IMG/VR virus record: IMGVR_UViG_3300009034_000154
Coordinates: 1-31,833 of that record
Length of the DNA: 31,833 bases
Strand: one strand, 5' to 3'
Origin: a virus
Shown here: in pieces, positions 15,520-29,956 of the stretch
Position numbering within the stretch: the stretch's first letter is position 1
How the letters are laid out: each line of letters opens with the position of its first letter
Program-made: the position numbers and the translations under genes
The notes under the pieces: model-generated
What the model saw: only the letters and a program-made list of their open reading frames with translations
Database searches by the model: none
Told to the model about the DNA's origin: nothing

Positions 15520-15863
15520 TATTTGGTCTCCTTTAACAGTTTCTTTGCAGCGGCAACCGCTTCAGCCTTGGCCCTGGCTTCCGCCTCAGCCTTGGCCCTG
15601 GTTTCCGCCTCGGCCTTGGCCTTCGCCTCGGCCTCAGCAAGAACGCGTTTGGCCTCTTGAATCGCCTTGGCCTTGGCCCTGGCTTTAGCTTCAGCTTCCA
15701 AGCACTTCGCTTGCCTGGCCTTTTCCGCCGCAATGCGTTTATCCCGTTGCGCCCTGAGTGATTGAACCAGAGAGTTCGTATCGTTGATGATGTCCACCAT
15801 CTCATTCAACACTCTCAGGAGCTTCTGCGGGCTTTCCAGTTCATTCTTTAATACGCGTTTCAT
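15519..15863 (-). CDS. Ala/Lys/Glu-rich coiled-coil protein next to the spike (114 aa)
   Basis: No known family recognised. The first 45 residues are an ordinary helical segment (KNELESPQKLLRVLNEMVD). From about residue 50 to the end the protein is a near-uninterrupted alanine-rich helix of AEAKAKAEAETRAKAEAEAR type, which should form a long rigid coiled coil or single alpha-helix. The underlying DNA is an imperfect repeat of GCC, GAG and AAG codons (complementary strand 15556-15700). It lies directly upstream of the spike gene (TAATG overlap) and downstream of the Bbp16-like gene, with AAGGAGACATT before its ATG. A scaffold, spacer or spike-chaperone role is possible. It has no leader peptide although it begins MKR. 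Confidence 0.65.
   Translation of the reverse strand: MKRVLKNELESPQKLLRVLNEMVDIINDTNSLVQSLRAQRDKRIAAEKARQAKCLEAEAKARAKAKAIQEAKRVLAEAEAKAKAEAETRAKAEAEARAKAEAVAAAKKLLKETK
15556..15700. repeat. Low-complexity imperfect repeat encoding the AEAKAKAEA helix
   Basis: On the given strand, GCCTTGGCC and GCCTCGGCC-like units alternate with GGCTTCCGC and GGTTTCCGC-like units over about 145 bp. The array keeps the reading frame of the coiled-coil gene and is likely to vary in copy number by slippage or recombination. Confidence 0.7.
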
Positions 15864-19811: not shown

Positions 19812-20240
19812 TTAGACAACAGTCTGTTCGTATCCATCTAAACTCGGATCGATTATTATCTCTGCCCCTCCGAAGGACGTGAATCGTTCAGGTTGCTCAA
19901 CGTTATTGTGTGAGTACCACCATTTCCATAATTGTGCATAGGCTTGCCTGTTCATACGCAATATGAAATCGCCCGGTGAATATTTTGATAACATATCAAT
20001 AAGACAGTCACCCCCTACTGAAAAGTCATCAATTTCATCGGGAATTTCCGTCATGTCGCCATTGCCATCTATATTCGACAGACTAATATTACATAAACGG
20101 GCCAGGCATACATCGCTCTTAAAGAGATATATTGATGTTTTGTTTGGCGTTGATGATGCACAGCCCTGCGCATTGTCAAATAAATGCTCTGACCCCAACT
20201 TGTTAAACATCGGATTCTCACGAATTTTATCATAAATCAT
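19812..20240 (-). CDS. Truncated major-capsid-like paralogue (142 aa)
   Basis: Two blocks match the major capsid protein: FDNAQGCASSTPNKTSIYLF against its HDNAGGAASVTANKTSMYLI, and ARLCNISLSNIDG against QRICNISTSNIDG. These are followed by IDDFSVGGDCLIDML against VDDFSFDEEYLIDAL, and by a similar C-terminal helix (LRMNRQAYAQLWKW). The first 140 or so capsid residues are missing, and about 75-80 residues between the two blocks are deleted. The DNA also stays similar in the matching blocks. Its frame is intact and it has a good start (GGAGCGGCTTAATG), directly after the portal gene. It may be a minor head protein, a dominant regulator of assembly, or a decaying duplicate. Confidence 0.75.
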   Translation of the reverse strand: MIYDKIRENPMFNKLGSEHLFDNAQGCASSTPNKTSIYLFKSDVCLARLCNISLSNIDGNGDMTEIPDEIDDFSVGGDCLIDMLSKYSPGDFILRMNRQAYAQLWKWWYSHNNVEQPERFTSFGGAEIIIDPSLDGYEQTVV

Positions 20241-21934
20241 TAAGCCGCTCCCATCAGCGCCGCCGGCGAGTTCGGTTCGATACTCTTGCCGGGCGGCATC
20301 ATCTTGCTCATAGACTCGGCGACCATAAGCTGCTTTTGCATCTGCTCATCCTGCTGATCCTGGACCTCGATCTCGACCATCTCCTGATCGGTTTTAAAGA
20401 GGTCCTGGTCCATACCGTGCCGGATCATGGCCCTTTCGATATACTTCCAATCCCGTATCTTGGCTAAGGCGCGAGGGAACAAACCGGCGAAGACTTCAAG
20501 AATCTGCAACTGTTCGAGCGTCCCTTTCGTTTGGCGTATCGTTCGCTTGAGCTGCGCCAGACGGCCCATGTACTGATTCTGAATCTTACGATTCCCATAG
20601 GTATATAATTCATCCGGCATATCCGGCATCCGGCCGGCGCGTCTTTCGTAGGCCCAGATAATATTCGAGGCCGGCTCCAGGACCTGGTCCTCGTTAGCCT
20701 CAATCGTCGGACCCATCATGGTAATCTTCTCATTGACCATTTGAGAGACTTCATAGGCCGTGCGCGTGGGCTGATCTTCGCCGCCGGTCAGCATCTCGAA
20801 GAATTGAATGTAAAATACCTCGTCGGTATAGCCACCAATCTGAGTCACTTCGGCATCCGTCACCGGCCAGTTGATCTTATCGGTAATGGCCTCAATAATC
20901 TCCTCGGGATTATCTACAAACGTCATACTGCCGGGGTTCAACTGATTCTCAAGCACCTGCGAACGAAGTGTCCCGCTAATACGTTTGGCCGGCTGCGCGC
21001 TGAGATGGGCCGCCAAAAGCTTATATTTCGCCAGGGCGTTACCGTAGGATCCTTGTGTGAGTGCATCCAGGGCCGGGGATAAAGGATAATCTTCGCCGAC
21101 GCACGCCCCTAATCGTAAGGTAACCGGCCCCCAGTCAAGCCCCTCGGTAGCAATAAGCCGATTCGCTTTGCGTACAGTCGCCTCTCGAAGGATATAGAAG
21201 GCGATATAGGGCTTATCCGATGAATCGAGACTGCCCGACCGCCGGGATTCATTTTTATAAACAGCCAGAAGAATCTTGTAGGATTTGAAGGGATTCGGAT
21301 TGCGGCCTGTGAAGTTTTTCTTAATCTCTTCGGGCAGGGCATTGGCATCGAAGCTTTTCCTCATATCGTAGGCGGTCATATCGATATGAAAATGCCAGCC
21401 AACGATATGACCGAGATCGTCGACCTGAAACCAGTAATCCGCCGGATGACGACACTGAAAGACGACCCTGTCTTCGATCTTGTCTATTTTAGCCGTCATA
21501 CAACCGTAGGTACAGCCGGCGTCTTTCATAAACTGAGGTAGTTCCTGATAGAATGTAGACTGGGCGAAACCGAACCTAACCTGCTCCTCGGCCTCCTGAA
21601 GTTTCTGCTTGACCCTATCGTTCTCCATAAGCTCCTGATTCGCTGAGGTAAAGCGAATCCACCAGGGATCGGTATCGTTGGCAGAAACGGTATTACCGAC
21701 GAAACCTACGGCGAATTTGGAGAGTGACCGCGCCGGGTGCGGATCGTAGACCGTCAGCCCGAACTTATCGCCCTTGGCTCGATGGCGCTGAATATCGTAG
21801 CGCCGGGGCTGAAAGAGCTTAATCGCCATATCATAAAGCTCTTCGTAGACCTTGCGCTTGGCCTGCAAGCTCCTGTGGAGATTCATTACGAAGTCCACGA
21901 TCTTCTCGTTGGTCATTTCACGCCAATTGAGCAT
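20240..21934 (-). CDS. Portal protein (head-tail connector, gp8-like, 564 aa)
   Basis: Matches podovirus portal proteins throughout. It has the N-terminal helix with RKVYEELYDMAIKLFQPRRY, then DPHPARSLSKFAVGFVGNTV, WWIRFTS, a central EDRVVFQCRHPADYWFQVDD, and the crown/stem helices near residues 320-420 (YEVSQMVNEKITMMGPTIEA). The acidic Gln-rich C-terminus (EVQDQQDEQMQKQLMVAES) is also typical. It forms the dodecameric gate used for packaging and as the tail attachment site. The ATG at 21934 overlaps the previous stop as TAATG; a second in-frame ATG 18 nt downstream is possible. Length is near T7 gp8 (536). Confidence 0.87.
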   Translation of the reverse strand: MLNWREMTNEKIVDFVMNLHRSLQAKRKVYEELYDMAIKLFQPRRYDIQRHRAKGDKFGLTVYDPHPARSLSKFAVGFVGNTVSANDTDPWWIRFTSANQELMENDRVKQKLQEAEEQVRFGFAQSTFYQELPQFMKDAGCTYGCMTAKIDKIEDRVVFQCRHPADYWFQVDDLGHIVGWHFHIDMTAYDMRKSFDANALPEEIKKNFTGRNPNPFKSYKILLAVYKNESRRSGSLDSSDKPYIAFYILREATVRKANRLIATEGLDWGPVTLRLGACVGEDYPLSPALDALTQGSYGNALAKYKLLAAHLSAQPAKRISGTLRSQVLENQLNPGSMTFVDNPEEIIEAITDKINWPVTDAEVTQIGGYTDEVFYIQFFEMLTGGEDQPTRTAYEVSQMVNEKITMMGPTIEANEDQVLEPASNIIWAYERRAGRMPDMPDELYTYGNRKIQNQYMGRLAQLKRTIRQTKGTLEQLQILEVFAGLFPRALAKIRDWKYIERAMIRHGMDQDLFKTDQEMVEIEVQDQQDEQMQKQLMVAESMSKMMPPGKSIEPNSPAALMGAA

Positions 21935-22242
21935 TATCCTAACGTGTCCTTTAAACTTGGCCGCCGGGTCTGAATCGGCTCGATAAGACCCGGTAGACCC
22001 GCTCTGGACTTACCCCGGTTCATACCGGCAGCGCGCATCCGCTGCTCCATATTCCTGCGGGCCGCGTGAGATTCGGCCTGGATTTCCTTGACGGGCTGCT
22101 GCGGAATATGGATTTTGGGTATTTTCGGTTTCTGTAGGGCACTGTAAATGCCCACTCCGGCCCCTGCTAACGTAGCAATGGGCGCTACGGCCTTGGCCGC
22201 AGCAGCTATAGCTGATATCAAACCTGCAAGAAAAGCAAACAT
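21934..22242 (-). CDS. Small protein with hydrophobic N-terminus between terminase and portal (102 aa)
   Basis: Residues 1-33 are Ala/Gly-rich and hydrophobic (FAFLAGLISAIAAAAKAVAPI-type stretch). They are followed by a Pro/Lys/Ile linker (KPKIPKIHIPQQP) and a basic C-terminal tail (ARRNMEQRMRAAGMNRGKS). Genes of this size and composition often lie between the large terminase and portal in podoviruses, but their role is unclear. A membrane-associated or core protein is possible. AGAGGTG precedes the ATG and overlaps the terminase stop. Confidence 0.6.
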   Translation of the reverse strand: MFAFLAGLISAIAAAAKAVAPIATLAGAGVGIYSALQKPKIPKIHIPQQPVKEIQAESHAARRNMEQRMRAAGMNRGKSRAGLPGLIEPIQTRRPSLKDTLG

Positions 22243-22244
22243 GA

Positions 22245-23876
22245 TTACACCTCTAATAAATCCGTCACGCCCAGAATTGTCTTGGAGTTACAAGCGCCTT
22301 GCCAAACAGGTTTGGTCTCGCCTAACCTGCGGCCTCCAATACGACCGAGACGATGCTGAACCGCTAAGGTCTCAAGCGCCTTACAATCGTGGGAATAACG
22401 ATCGAGTCTCGGTACTTTCTTGTAGTCACCCATGGCCTCGTCGTACTCGAAACTATACATGGCCAGAGATTGACAGAAATTCGGGAGTTTTCTCTGGCTG
22501 TAGCCGGCCTTTTTCTCTCTGTCACAGGTCGGGGCATGAATATGTAAGTGCCGAAAAATCGTCCTGACAGCCGCAATACCCTCCGATTCACGGCGGATTT
22601 TAGGCACCTTCAACACAGGGCCTACTCTGAGCAATTTCTTATAATCGTCAATCAGGACAACGCCGGTATTCTTCTGATGCTCCATGACATCGTGCGGGAA
22701 ATAATGGCCGCCATACGTATAAGGCTTGTTATTGACGATATGGGCGTGATAAGGCGCCCCCCGGCCCACTTCCGAATGATGATCGATAATCCTGATCTCA
22801 CCGCCCAAAAACTGAGCAAAAATAGCTACCTGTGCATCGTGATAGCCAATATCCCAGAAGGTATAGACCGGGGTGTTCTCTACCCAATCGTAATGACCGA
22901 TTCGACCTTCTGACCGGGCCTGATTCATCTGACGACCATACACGGCCCCTTCACTCGACAGTTCAAACGGCTCATCGGGCGTCGAGGGATACTGCTGCTT
23001 CATATCTTCACCCTGACCGGCCGGTCCGTCCCGTGTGAGGGTATACCAGGCCTTCTGTCCGTCCGTCAGCGGCGCATAGGATTGCTGACGCTCCTGACAA
23101 TACTTCTGAATAGGTTCGGCGATTTGATCGAAATAACGCTCCAACTCGTCACTCATCAAAATCCCTTCGGTATTGGCTAACGTGTATTGAGGATGCCGCC
23201 ACCATGGGAAGAAATGAAACTTGATCTCCTTCTTCTGTAAATCGCGGCCTTCCCTCAGCGCCCGGGCTGTCGCCCCTCTCGATGACTGCGCCATTTCGTA
23301 AAACAGGCCCGCTGGACCCTCGGCGGTCGATTCCACAAACAAATAACTGCCATCGTGAAGCGTCGGTAAGGCCCCGGTTTTGATATCCCTGGCCTTCTCG
23401 GGATAGGTTGCACAAATCTTGCCCAATTCAGAAATGTGCAGCAGGCGGCAGGTAGCACTTACCGTCGATGCGCCGGTTCCCACCCAAATCTGAGAGCCGT
23501 TACTCAGGCGCAATTCCATCGAATCACACTTCAACGGAGAGGCCGCCTCCCGTACCTCCCACGGTAAATGCTCGTAAGGATATAAAATCTTGTTGTGGAA
23601 GATCCGCTGAGCCGACTTGAGGTTATGACAGATGATTGCGGCGTGCTGATTCGTGTTAAAAACGCAGTGATCCAAAATGAATAAGTCAATAAATGTGGTG
23701 AAACCTAACTGGCGGGCCTTCAAAATCAGGTTCCAGTACCACATCCGATGATAAAACCAGTGCTGGGCCGGGCGAAAATTGAACTGACACTCCTCACCCT
23801 CATCGTTCACAAAACGATATAAATGCGTCAGACGCCAGTCCCGATCCAGCAAATACTTGGCTATGCGCTTGTCCAA
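22245..23876 (-). CDS. terL: Terminase large subunit (543 aa)
   Basis: N-terminal ATPase: the adenine-site region is FRPAQHWFYHRMWYWNLI and the Walker A-type loop is LKARQLGFTTF. The Walker B strand is LLHISELGK (acidic pair reduced to SE, which I recall from this terminase branch), and the coupling motif is FVESTAEG. The C-terminal RNase H-like nuclease starts with FWDIGYHDAQ; later acidic positions are FPHDVMEH and DRYSHDCKALE. It powers DNA packaging and cuts concatemers. The frame starts at a TTG (23876); no in-frame ATG lies near, and the only upstream G-rich site is a 7-G run, so the start is unusual. An AAGCC/GGCTT inverted repeat surrounds that G run. Confidence 0.88.
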   Translation of the reverse strand: MDKRIAKYLLDRDWRLTHLYRFVNDEGEECQFNFRPAQHWFYHRMWYWNLILKARQLGFTTFIDLFILDHCVFNTNQHAAIICHNLKSAQRIFHNKILYPYEHLPWEVREAASPLKCDSMELRLSNGSQIWVGTGASTVSATCRLLHISELGKICATYPEKARDIKTGALPTLHDGSYLFVESTAEGPAGLFYEMAQSSRGATARALREGRDLQKKEIKFHFFPWWRHPQYTLANTEGILMSDELERYFDQIAEPIQKYCQERQQSYAPLTDGQKAWYTLTRDGPAGQGEDMKQQYPSTPDEPFELSSEGAVYGRQMNQARSEGRIGHYDWVENTPVYTFWDIGYHDAQVAIFAQFLGGEIRIIDHHSEVGRGAPYHAHIVNNKPYTYGGHYFPHDVMEHQKNTGVVLIDDYKKLLRVGPVLKVPKIRRESEGIAAVRTIFRHLHIHAPTCDREKKAGYSQRKLPNFCQSLAMYSFEYDEAMGDYKKVPRLDRYSHDCKALETLAVQHRLGRIGGRRLGETKPVWQGACNSKTILGVTDLLEV

Positions 23877-27333: not shown

Positions 27334-27450
27334 TCATTCTGGCTCAGTCTCATCCCGCTCTAGTCTCCAGGGCCCTCGGACACATATCCCGTTACATTTC
27401 TGGCCGAATATGCTCTCGTTTGTCCGATTGTCAGCAGGATCGTTTGCCAT
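27334..27450 (-). CDS. Possible small hydrophilic protein (38 aa)
   Basis: Reads MANDPADNRTNESIFGQKCN then GICVRGPWRLERDETEPE. There is only a weak GGAT upstream. The 13 nt immediately before the ATG are complementary to the loop region of the terminator at 27487-27532, which may bear on its expression. Two Cys in a CNGIC arrangement. Modest support from composition and position. Confidence 0.4.
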   Translation of the reverse strand: MANDPADNRTNESIFGQKCNGICVRGPWRLERDETEPE

Positions 27451-27463
27451 AGACTTTTATCCG
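27451..27463 (-). promoter_or_regulatory. 13-nt element complementary to the terminator loop
   Basis: AGACTTTTATCCG here is the exact reverse complement of 27506-27518, which spans the loop and part of one arm of the downstream-strand terminator hairpin. On the minus transcript this places CGGATAAAAGTCT directly before the ATG at 27450. A loop-to-leader pairing would mask that start region or disturb the terminator. Confidence 0.55.
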
Positions 27464-27476
27464 TTCTATTTATATC

Positions 27477-27532
27477 CTATAAAAAAAGCCGGACCAGCGA
27501 GAATTCGGATAAAAGTCTCGCTGTATCCGGCT
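27477..27532 (-). terminator. Rho-independent terminator after the nuclease gene
   Basis: Arms AGCCGGA/TCCGGCT (27487-27493 with 27526-27532) and CAGCGAGA/TCTCGCTG (27495-27502 with 27516-27523) form a 15-bp stem with one unpaired position per side. Read on the minus strand it is followed by seven T. It ends transcription of the nuclease gene. The late operon to the left therefore needs its own promoter or antitermination; no consensus promoter was found between here and 27256. Confidence 0.85.
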
Positions 27533-27621
27533 CATATTCAATCATCCATGATGTATCCATTGTCGATTCCATCATTATATATATTACTATACGCCGGCTA
27601 TCACAATGCTGTCAAGAGATT

Positions 27622-28104
27622 CTACGCAAATTCAATAATTTTTTTCTCTTTGGTATACCGTCTATCTGCGTAAATGTCTATCATATCACCACTTGCGAGC
27701 CGAAACTCGAATTTGAGGTGGGGTAACATTTCTATGATTTTTTGATATTTTTCCCGATTTTTGTGTAGTGCTTGCCGGGTTCCGATGACTTCGATAAAGA
27801 CATTACGATTAGCATCATAAAAATCTGGCGTGTAATTAAAGTCCTCGCAATGAAATGTCACCAGCTCGTAAAACCAGTTTTTGTGCTCGAAGAAATGCCG
27901 CACAAACTCCATCTCGCGCGGATACAATGAACGTTTGTGTCGCCGCAGACTAAACATATCCCTATGTACTGCTCCCACCATTTCGCCTTGGGGCGGAAAT
28001 CCTCCAGCATTTTTTCGCTCTCTTTGATAATGGACTTCGCACAATCCGCGTTTCTTGATGTGCACATTTTTCCTGCAACCTTGAATTCTACATGTCTGAC
28101 TCAT
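27622..28104 (-). CDS. Zinc-finger plus PD-(D/E)XK-like nuclease (160 aa)
   Basis: Residues 1-30 hold CRIQGC and a GLCEVHYQRER element, the C..C...C..H pattern of small zinc knuckles often fused to phage homing nucleases. Residues 90-135 contain FNYTPDFYDANRNVFIEVIG and KYQKIIEMLPHLKFEF. The PDF...EV pair matches the PD-(D/E)XK nuclease core, but the usual Lys after the second acidic residue is Ile, so activity is uncertain or the Lys has migrated. AGGAGTAG precedes the ATG. It stands alone between its own consensus promoter and a strong terminator, typical of a mobile nuclease gene. Confidence 0.6.
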   Translation of the reverse strand: MSQTCRIQGCRKNVHIKKRGLCEVHYQRERKNAGGFPPQGEMVGAVHRDMFSLRRHKRSLYPREMEFVRHFFEHKNWFYELVTFHCEDFNYTPDFYDANRNVFIEVIGTRQALHKNREKYQKIIEMLPHLKFEFRLASGDMIDIYADRRYTKEKKIIEFA

Positions 28105-28248: not shown

Positions 28249-28277
28249 TTGACAACTCGACGCAAATAGTCGATAAT
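28249..28277 (+). promoter_or_regulatory. Plus-strand promoter with internal palindrome
   Basis: TTGACA (28249-28254), a 17-bp spacer and GATAAT (28272-28277) form a good sigma-70-type promoter. The spacer carries TCGAC and GTCGA arms around a 7-bp centre (28258-28274), a possible repressor site lying exactly between the hexamers. Transcription would begin near 28284, about 22 nt before the leader ORF. Confidence 0.7.
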
Positions 28278-28305: not shown

Positions 28306-28413
28306 ATGACGACGGCTAAAACAATCCAAATCACAACAATCGCGAGCGCCCGAGGGTCATATGGACTTAGCCGTCGTCTGCCTGGAGGCGCTCGCTTTTT
28401 ACAGGAGAATTGA
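28306..28413 (+). CDS. Putative leader peptide ORF, Thr/Ile-rich (35 aa)
   Basis: The ORF begins about 22 nt after the predicted transcription start with AAAGGATAAG upstream. Its first twelve residues, MTTAKTIQITTI, hold five Thr and three Ile, as in the leader peptide of the E. coli thr operon. It then reads ASARGSYGLSRRLPGG and ends two bases before the ATG of the next gene. It crosses all four arms of the RNA element at 28308-28400. That makes a role in attenuation or translational coupling plausible, but translation is unproven and a plain small protein is possible. Confidence 0.5.
   Translation: MTTAKTIQITTIASARGSYGLSRRLPGGARFLQEN
28308..28400 (+). promoter_or_regulatory. Leader RNA with crossing stems and terminator-like 3' end
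   Basis: Arm 1 GACGACGGCTAA (28308-28319) is the perfect complement of arm 3 TTAGCCGTCGTC (28367-28378), 12 bp. Arm 2 GCGAGCGCC (28342-28350) is the perfect complement of arm 4 GGCGCTCGC (28387-28395), 9 bp, followed by TTTTT (28396-28400). The order 1-2-3-4 with pairs 1:3 and 2:4 crosses, giving a pseudoknot or two competing folds. Pair 2:4 plus the T-run is an intrinsic-terminator shape. Arm 1 begins inside the leader ORF start codon, so 1:3 would also block its translation. Confidence 0.7.
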
Positions 28414-28423
28414 AAATGGCAAC
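28403..28423 (+). repeat. Translation leader repeat, copy 1
   Basis: 21 bp beginning AGGAGAATTGAAAATGGC, including Shine-Dalgarno and start codon. It is identical at 28668-28688; a shorter version (GAGAATTGAAAATGG) is at 28913-28927. The untranslated part AGGAGAATTGAAA also occurs on the minus strand at 31796-31808. Confidence 0.85.
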
Positions 28424-28637
28424 GAAAAACAAACCAAACATCGACCAGATAATTGCAGATTCTCGGTGCTTCGGATTGGATCCAGATTGGCTCCGGAATG
28501 CTCTAATCCCCGCTATTCAGCAGGCCGGGGGATCTGCTATCGACGGCCATCCCGTCCCGTATTCTGTCACTGTATCGCTAGGCGACGAATCTCGATATGT
28601 CTGGGCTGATGGTCGTGTCGAGATCAGTAGTACTTGA
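28416..28637 (+). CDS. Hypothetical protein, first gene of plus-strand cassette (73 aa)
   Basis: Starts MATKNKPNIDQIIADSRCFG and contains WLRNALIPAIQQAGGSAIDG and a beta end (YSVTVSLGDESRYVWADGRV). Not recognised. AGGAG lies 8 nt before the ATG. The leader ORF stops two bases before the start codon, so expression depends on passing the terminator-like element upstream. The start MAT..NI.QI is shared with the next gene, suggesting that at least the 5' end was duplicated. Confidence 0.65.
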   Translation: MATKNKPNIDQIIADSRCFGLDPDWLRNALIPAIQQAGGSAIDGHPVPYSVTVSLGDESRYVWADGRVEISST

Positions 28638-28667
28638 GCGAGCTTGCTGTGAAATTGAAACCTTCTT

Positions 28668-28688
28668 AGGAGAATTGAAAATGGCAAC
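28668..28688 (+). repeat. Translation leader repeat, copy 2
   Basis: Exact 21-bp copy of 28403-28423, in front of the 68-aa gene. Confidence 0.85.
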
Positions 28689-28887
28689 ACAAAAGATCAA
28701 TATACGCCAAATCCTCAAAACCATCGGTGCAGACAGAGTACGCCATAATGCCGATGGGAGTTGGGATGCCCTTTGGTATAAGCATCCGCACAATATTGCC
28801 TCCAACGGGCACTATGTGCTGATCGGGTGCAACGATGCAAAGGCACTCGATTATTTAATCAGGGCGCATGGCTGGGGTTCGGAATGA
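28681..28887 (+). CDS. Hypothetical protein, second gene of the cassette (68 aa)
   Basis: Reads MATQKINIRQILKTIGADRV, RHNADGSWDALWYKHPHNIA, then HYVLIGCNDAKALDYLIRAH. Mixed alpha/beta with no metal motif; not recognised. Start set by AGGAG and by the leader shared with the gene before it; a longer in-frame version from 28597 would overlap the previous gene and lacks a ribosome site. Confidence 0.65.
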   Translation: MATQKINIRQILKTIGADRVRHNADGSWDALWYKHPHNIASNGHYVLIGCNDAKALDYLIRAHGWGSE

Positions 28888-28923
28888 CAAGTTCAGTGGA
28901 CTCGCTTTTTGAGAGAATTGAAA

Positions 28924-29052
28924 ATGGATGACAATACACAAACCGAAGAACGTGAGTGTTTTCATTGTGGCGCTGATTTCTCGCCAGAGACACAAGATCA
29001 ATTCTTTTGCTCCGATGAATGCGAGAATATCTTTAATGCTCTTTTAGGATAG
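28924..29052 (+). CDS. Small zinc-binding protein (42 aa)
   Basis: Reads MDDNTQTEERECFHCGADFS then PETQDQFFCSDECENIFNAL. The CxxC...CxxxC spacing is a typical treble-clef or zinc-ribbon knuckle, as in small phage proteins that bind nucleic acid or partner proteins. GAGAGAATTGAAA precedes the ATG, part of the repeated leader, and CTCGCTTTTT upstream copies the end of the first leader element. A terminator follows the stop. Confidence 0.65.
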   Translation: MDDNTQTEERECFHCGADFSPETQDQFFCSDECENIFNALLG

Positions 29053-29372
29053 TTTTTCAATTCTCTGCGCCTTGGCTCCGGTCGGGCGCAGGGGATTTTG
29101 ATCTTTGACAAGTAAATAGCGAGGATGGCAGAAAGCGAGGATAACTATGTTGACAAAATCTGAGTATACCTTTCTATTGATATACAAATAAATCTAAAAC
29201 AACAAAAACATAAGGGTGAAAATAGATAAAAAAATCGAAAATTTTCAAGCCAAAATATAAATCCTTTAAAACAACATAGTTAAATCAACAAAAAATTTCA
29301 CTTTCTACTAAAGTTTCCACCTAAAATAACCGTTATAAAATAAAAACAATGTTAAACAGAAAGGAAATTACA
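29053..29372 (+). other. A/T-rich gap between cassette and lysis-type genes
   Basis: No convincing gene in 320 bp. After the terminator (29061-29099) the sequence is very A/T-rich. It holds a possible -35 TTGACA at 29151, an 11-bp inverted repeat TAACTATGTTG (29142-29152) with CAACATAGTTA (29272-29282), and TATAAAAT near 29334 as a possible -10. The gap probably carries the promoter for the lipoprotein genes; an origin-like role is possible but has no direct support. Confidence 0.45.
29061..29099 (+). terminator. Intrinsic terminator after the zinc-binding protein gene
   Basis: CTGCGCC (29065-29071) pairs with GGCGCAG (29085-29091). With G-T pairs the stem extends to 11 bp (29061-29071 with 29085-29095), loop 13 nt, followed by TTTT. 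It closes the plus-strand cassette transcribed from 28249. Confidence 0.75.
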
Positions 29373-29540
29373 ATGGACATGAACAGAAACCCCAGTAATG
29401 TCGAAATGTGGTTGATTGCTGTGTTATTAAGTATTTTGGTATGTGGAGCTATGATTCTCGCTTCCGGCTGCCATACCATTCATGGCATTGGTGAAGACCT
29501 CAAATGTACTACCTCCCATTATATAGGTGATCCACAATGA
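29373..29540 (+). CDS. Entericidin-like small lipoprotein (55 aa)
   Basis: A hydrophobic leader (MWLIAVLLSILVCGAMI) leads to a lipobox LASG|C, followed by CHTIHGIGEDLKC. Entericidins share the short lipoprotein form and the GC.T..G.G.D(I/L) motif after the acylated Cys. In bacteria they are small envelope-stress or toxin/antidote lipoproteins. AAAGGAAA precedes the ATG at 29373; an earlier in-frame ATG at 29349 lacks such a site. The stop overlaps the next start as ATGA. In a phage it could affect the envelope during lysis or alter the infected host surface. Confidence 0.65.
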   Translation: MDMNRNPSNVEMWLIAVLLSILVCGAMILASGCHTIHGIGEDLKCTTSHYIGDPQ

Positions 29541-29956
29541 TTCCCCTCCTCCTATTCACTCACTTCAAATATAAGGCAAGGATGCCTTCCCTTTTTTTGT
29601 TATGTTTCGTAAAATGGACTGTACTATTTGGATGTCAACCAGAACCGCAAAGCACAACAAAAGAATTTATCGTGACAGCATATTGTCCTTGCAGTAAATG
29701 CTGTGCTCCTTACGATGATGACATAACAGCTTCGGGCCACGTGATTCAACCCGGAGATAAATTAATTGCAGCACCTAAAATTATTCCTTTCGGGACACTA
29801 ATAGATATACCGGGATATGGAGAGAAAGTTCCTGTATTAGATCGGGGCGGTGCTATCAAAGGTAATAGATTGGATGTACTATTCGACACACATCAAGAAG
29901 CCCTAATTTGGGGGAGAAAGAAATTGAAGTGCGTCATTTATTGCCCTGATGCTTGA
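29537..29956 (+). CDS. 3D-domain (double-psi barrel) lytic-type lipoprotein (139 aa)
   Basis: Residues about 44-139 contain VTAYCPCSKCC, DDITASG, GDKLIAAPKIIPFGTLIDIP, VPVLDRGGAIKGNRLDVLFD and EALIWGRKKL. This is the order of 3D domains, named for three Asp and found in peptidoglycan lytic transglycosylases and resuscitation factors. The Asp residues of DRGG and LDVLF are present. A hydrophobic segment ends in VLFG|C, so it is probably a lipoprotein. The start at 29537 overlaps the entericidin-like gene (AGGTGA upstream). The in-frame ATG at 29582 gives a tidier 17-residue signal and is a serious alternative. Likely role: cell-wall degradation at lysis or entry. Confidence 0.75.
   Translation: MIPLLLFTHFKYKARMPSLFLLCFVKWTVLFGCQPEPQSTTKEFIVTAYCPCSKCCAPYDDDITASGHVIQPGDKLIAAPKIIPFGTLIDIPGYGEKVPVLDRGGAIKGNRLDVLFDTHQEALIWGRKKLKCVIYCPDA

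Follow-up and report, generated by a model that had tools for sequence, protein, structure and literature searches.

Crossed complementary helices in the leader of a three-gene phage cassette: a candidate transcription attenuator

What purpose is served by two perfectly complementary pairs of segments that lie in crossed order across a short leader open reading frame (ORF), between a promoter and three small phage genes? An earlier note on this DNA had suggested that the cassette at 28416-29052 is switched by translation of a Thr/Ile-rich leader, with amino acids or the ribosome being sensed, or else by a pseudoknot. Here we examine the locus within its window, the whole stretch of 31,833 nucleotides that was analysed.

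The phage record and the leader of the cassette

The virus record (IMG/VR IMGVR_UViG_3300009034_000154, 31,834 bases) represents an orphan phage. A structural module of podovirus-like type lies on the minus strand and comprises a head-tail adaptor, major head protein, tail tubular protein, internal virion protein and terminases. The packaging module (20240-23876, minus strand) is mosaic, the terminase being nearest to siphovirus or prophage terminases and the adaptor podovirus-like. The best relatives of the terminase are about 39% identical over its full length; the head-tail adaptor found no counterpart among viral or genome contigs and reaches about 24% identity at best against phage records, and a search with the major head protein gave one match, at 25%. 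DNA comparison with phage records yielded no usable relative, and neither did the exact arm patterns of the two crossed elements described below among 2.9 million viral contigs. Close relatives of this phage are absent from the collections searched. The contig is probably incomplete, because replication genes were not seen among the ORFs examined. Elsewhere on the minus strand two small phage genes (24772-25020 and 23910-24452) both start M(K/E)RR(S/N)FLK and resemble twin-arginine signal sequences, the first with a weak Pfam TAT match. Within 29373-29956 on the plus strand a small ORF judged by eye to be an entericidin-like lipoprotein stands immediately 5' of a 3D-domain peptidase (PF06725), a tandem repeat (unit 24 nt, 3.4 copies) occupies 15557-15638, and 22046-22206 is a region with a strong U-tract hairpin.

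The features of the leader, hereafter element 1, and of the cassette are as follows.

28249-28277, plus strand: sigma-70-like promoter, TTGACA-17-GATAAT, 11/12 consensus match
28306-28413, plus strand: leader ORF of 35 codons, translated as MTTAKTIQITTIASARGSYGLSRRLPGGARFLQEN
28308-28319, plus strand: arm 1, GACGACGGCTAA, in leader codons 1-5; 5' strand of the predicted antiterminator helix, perfect 12-bp complement
28342-28350, plus strand: arm 2, GCGAGCGCC, pairing perfectly over 9 bp with its partner at 28387-28395
28367-28378, plus strand: partner of arm 1 (perfect 12 bp), within the loop of the terminator hairpin
28342-28400, plus strand: predicted terminator hairpin of arm 2, inner pairs and the partner at 28387-28395, then TTTTT at 28396-28400; dG -28.2
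28416-28637, plus strand: gene 1, 73 aa, for which searches found no convincing relatives
28681-28887, plus strand: gene 2, 68 aa, for which searches found no relatives
28924-29052, plus strand: gene 3, 42 aa, Cys4 zinc-ribbon-like, with weak PHROG and Pfam treble-clef matches
29062-29099, plus strand: predicted cassette-closing terminator, hairpin dG -21.7, T-tract at 29096

The crossed pairs, their order, the T-run, the Shine-Dalgarno sequence (AGGAG, at about 28403) and the gene 1 ATG at 28416 all lie exactly where the earlier note had placed them. The leader, which it had carried on to 28416, ends at a TGA at 28411-28413, 2 nt 5' of the gene 1 ATG and in a different frame from gene 1. From the position of the promoter the RNA is predicted to start at about 28284. 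The hairpin is the second strongest of the 28 U-tract hairpins in the window, after that at 22046-22112; its U-tract is short (TTTTTA) and starts 90 nt after the leader ATG. The promoter at 28249-28277 is the only strong one for the three small ORFs, and the U-tract hairpin sits between it and the genes, as in intrinsic-terminator attenuators generally. The internal terminator matters because these ORFs are without another strong promoter and have a terminator of their own (29062-29096). In an Rfam search the element matched no known RNA family, riboswitches, ribozymes and group I introns included.

Chance, copied start regions and a second crossed element

A second crossed element, absent from the earlier note, lies on the minus strand at 27532-27451, 0.8 kb from element 1.

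27622-28104, minus strand: putative HNH-type endonuclease ORF between the two crossed elements, its promoter a perfect sigma-70 consensus
27586-27615, minus strand: promoter of element 2, TTGACA-18-TATAGT, 11/12 consensus match
27480-27532, minus strand: predicted terminator hairpin of element 2, GCCGGATACAGCGAGA...TCTCGCTGGTCCGGC, then 7 T; dG about -25 to -27
27506-27518, minus strand: loop arm of element 2, AGACTTTTATCCG, a perfect 13-nt complement to 27463-27451
27451-27463, minus strand: target arm of element 2, CGGATAAAAGTCT, directly 5' of the ATG at 27450 and covering a weak Shine-Dalgarno sequence of a 38-aa ORF
27334-27450, minus strand: the 38-aa ORF, putative

Common to both elements is a U-tract hairpin whose loop is complementary to a translation-start region, over 12 nt in element 1 and 13 nt in element 2. 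The start region is upstream in element 1, in the leader ORF, and downstream in element 2, and this different order of the parts counts against the explanation favoured below. The hairpin of element 2 also follows the endonuclease ORF at a distance of about 90 nt and may be no more than that gene's terminator. Between the RNAs of the two elements, pairing extends to 7 nt at most.

The crossed 12/9 perfect pair did not appear once when the whole window was dinucleotide-shuffled 300 times, and neither an equally high crossed stem score nor two independent crossed pairs arose in 400. Other phage and prophage loci, 1.83 Mb in all, contained few comparable crossed pairs, and none of these was followed by a U-run. 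Among the 28 candidate U-tract hairpins of the window, only those of elements 1 and 2 have a loop complement of at least 12 nt, each of these (12 and 13 nt) being reached in 1 of 5000 flank shuffles; the best loop complement of the remaining 26 is 10 nt, inside a coding ORF. The hairpin that carries it, at 22046-22112, was considered as a third such element and rejected, this complement being at chance level by estimate. The crossed element is real and goes beyond chance.

These figures bear on another view of the locus, which would be that of an ordinary terminator in an array of small genes, with the extra complementarity fortuitous and the leader ORF a decayed or duplicated gene start. Copying of start regions within the cassette is in keeping with such a view. 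A 27-nt repeat is 93% identical, genes 1 and 2 have an identical 21-nt start region, and CTCGCTTTTT, which stands before gene 1, reappears before gene 3, where there is no stem. Near-identical start regions, AGGAGAATTGAAAATGG(CAAC), stand ahead of the three consecutive small genes (28403-28429, 28668-28694 and 28905-28927, plus strand), and 9 other viral contigs also contain the repeated motif, in dissimilar surroundings. Among 21 gene starts compared, the start of the leader is closest to that of gene 1 (score 31; the next, 24). At the protein level, paralogy of the leader, gene 1 and gene 2 was not significant. However, loop complements as rare as those of the two hairpins, two such elements within 0.9 kb and the lack of two independent crossed pairs in any shuffle make an ordinary terminator a quite unlikely account.

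The earlier description of the leader as Thr/Ile-rich holds for its first 12 residues, 8 of which are Thr or Ile, a content seen in 1 of the 461 ATG ORFs of the window, but does not extend to the remainder. Copying of a start region may account for part of the Thr/Ile content, given that gene 1 has the start most like that of the leader and that genes 1 to 3 share a start motif. Codon usage of the leader was uninformative and no family match to it was found.

Predicted folding and a possible switch

As separate duplexes the two helices of element 1 have energies of -20.5 (arm 1) and -18.7 kcal/mol (arm 2). The arm 1 helix is the minimum-energy fold once 28378 has been transcribed (-23.8) and remains so through 28390 (-28.6), and the terminator overtakes it as the best predicted fold only once the partner of arm 2 has been finished, at 28395. 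When the RNA has reached 28401, the two nested conformers are nearly isoenergetic, with -30.0 kcal/mol for the antiterminator and -32.0 for the terminator; the competing helix that would exclude the terminator is seen in these predicted conformers only. When the fold begins at 28322, so that arm 1 is masked much as it would be by a ribosome on the leader start, the terminator stands (-29.6); when masking extends through arm 2, it is lost (-11.5).

Because the helices are crossed and neither uses the bases of the other, they can coexist only as a pseudoknot. The pseudoknot of the earlier note is sterically possible, with stems of 12 and 9 bp and loops of 22, 16 and 8 nt, and the structure stops 7 nt 5' of the Shine-Dalgarno sequence, a position from which it might control translation of gene 1 or bind a phage protein with no termination involved. 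Its energy by a rough Dirks-Pierce estimate (-20.4) is, however, weaker than that of either nested fold, and a U-run directly after the second stem would be needless for such a function, which we regard as quite unlikely. Given that the helices coexist only in this way, and given the rough estimate of -20.4, kinetics probably decide between them, the outcome depending on whether arm 1 is still available as its partner is transcribed.

The explanation that we tentatively favour, while giving it slightly less than an even chance, is that element 1 is a conditional terminator, or transcription attenuator, in the 5' leader of the three-gene cassette. As the RNA emerges, arm 1 would pair first with its partner, and the resulting antiterminator helix would hide leader codons 1-5 and place arm 2 in its own loop; once 28387-28395 had been made, arm 2 could form the terminator instead. 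Should an initiating ribosome, or some other factor, sit on the leader start site, arm 1 would be unavailable, the nested terminator would form and the cassette would be off. With the start site empty, or with a ribosome at codons 10-12 or beyond, arm 2 would be held and RNA polymerase would read through. Translation of the leader up to its stop codon would also bring ribosomes beside the start of gene 1. Starting from what the analysis shows, namely the arms, their order and departure from chance, the U-tract, near-equal energies, a predicted order of formation and another element built on a related plan, we infer that transcription terminates here, that the leader is translated and that control runs in the direction described. 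It speaks against a conditional terminator that, if the pseudoknot can itself terminate, the antiterminator gives no protection. The shortness of the U-tract and a leader with neither a family match nor informative codon usage also count against it, and the searches brought up no relative in which the arms are conserved or covary. The suggestion of a switch upstream of 28416-29052 is supported by a hairpin that follows the only good promoter and has a near-isoenergetic competing helix; it was the sensing of amino acids, offered with it, that fared poorly.

Leader translation and likeness to known regulators

A different possibility is attenuation of the pyrBI or thr type, in which a ribosome following RNA polymerase would melt the terminator and allow read-through, so that starvation or the state of the ribosome is sensed. 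The pyrBI leader ends close to pyrB, and in attenuators of this type a UTP-sensitive pause of the polymerase couples the ribosome to it. The E. coli pyrBI attenuator resembles the present locus in having a short leader ORF that passes through an intrinsic terminator and ends beside the first gene; here the ORF runs across the whole terminator and stops 2 nt before gene 1. The phage leader differs in its perfect 12-bp competing helix over the leader start, in a shorter distance from start to terminator and in the absence of pyrimidine genes after it. With the thr/ilv-type attenuators (thrL) it shares Thr/Ile codons clustered in a leader ORF ahead of a terminator, 8 of the first 12 codons in this case, but these stand at the very start, in positions mostly favouring termination, and are followed by no biosynthetic operon.

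The reach of a stalled ribosome, estimated with the usual ribosome footprint, bears directly on this possibility. A ribosome starved at codons 2, 3, 6, 7 or 9 reaches about 28342 at furthest, judging from the codon positions; it would sit over arm 1 without hindering the terminator, whereas in thr-operon-type control the stalled ribosome favours the antiterminator. From codons 10-12 a ribosome would release arm 1 while holding arm 2, which is the position that suits ribosome-following attenuation. Ribosomes paused on the Thr/Ile codons had been expected to cover arm 1 and reach arm 2; by this estimate they would cover arm 1, but arm 2 would be blocked only from codons 10-12. Codons 2-3 are the first Thr codons met, and therefore starvation would stall the ribosome in the wrong, terminating state. 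No amino-acid or other biosynthetic genes follow, the downstream ORFs being small orphans, and there was no match to an Rfam leader family. Translation reduced the efficiency of an E. coli terminator by only about 10% when the terminator lay in the first 100 bp of a reading frame (PMC4824070), so that with a U-tract 90 nt from the start most termination would persist unless the polymerase pauses. Sensing of amino acids is not supported, because early stalls would favour termination and the U-tract, at 90 nt from the ATG, would mostly escape translation; control by a following ribosome in general, a pause-coupled mechanism like that of pyrBI included, we consider improbable.

The loop complementarity may also be viewed as a self-antisense RNA module, in which the terminated short RNA would be the active product, its loop binding in trans to the start site carried by read-through transcripts. 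Each of the two terminator loops has a perfect complement in a start region of its own transcript, and there is phage precedent in IsrK of prophage Gifsy-1, where one promoter yields both a small RNA, by termination, and a read-through mRNA under the control of that small RNA, with translational coupling (PMC4825925). IsrK and element 1 are both phage leaders that contain a terminator and a small ORF, can adopt alternative structures and are coupled in translation to the gene that follows; IsrK acts in trans on orf45 as a separate small RNA, whereas only pairing within the transcript is seen here. The C4 antisense RNA of P1 and P7 and the CI RNA of P4, which work similarly (PMC5320573; PMC4825925), likewise have phage RNA loops that pair within their own transcript, with a start region or the leader, but neither a processing motif nor a multi-hairpin fold was found in the phage element. 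Rfam gave no match of the 1.1-kb region to C4 or any other family, either at gathering thresholds or among credible weaker hits, with matches considered down to E<=5 and the C4 covariance model absent among them. The target of element 1 lies within the same short RNA, so pairing would be mostly intramolecular. Action in trans by a putative stable short RNA is a doubtful reading of the locus.

We return to the conditional terminator. Element 1 would be an attenuator, an already known kind of regulator, in a new form and with a mechanism that we infer. It is a somewhat bolder idea, and on balance an unlikely one, that the phage twice uses a terminator whose loop is antisense to a nearby start site, with one crossed RNA fold, present on each strand of a divergent control region, tying termination to initiation. 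If the conditional terminator is true, it would be a compact switch that needs no protein, transcription going on or stopping according to whether a start site is occupied; two cases within a single phage control region would set out a simple design to search for elsewhere, in which the loop of a terminator is the complement of a translation-start region.
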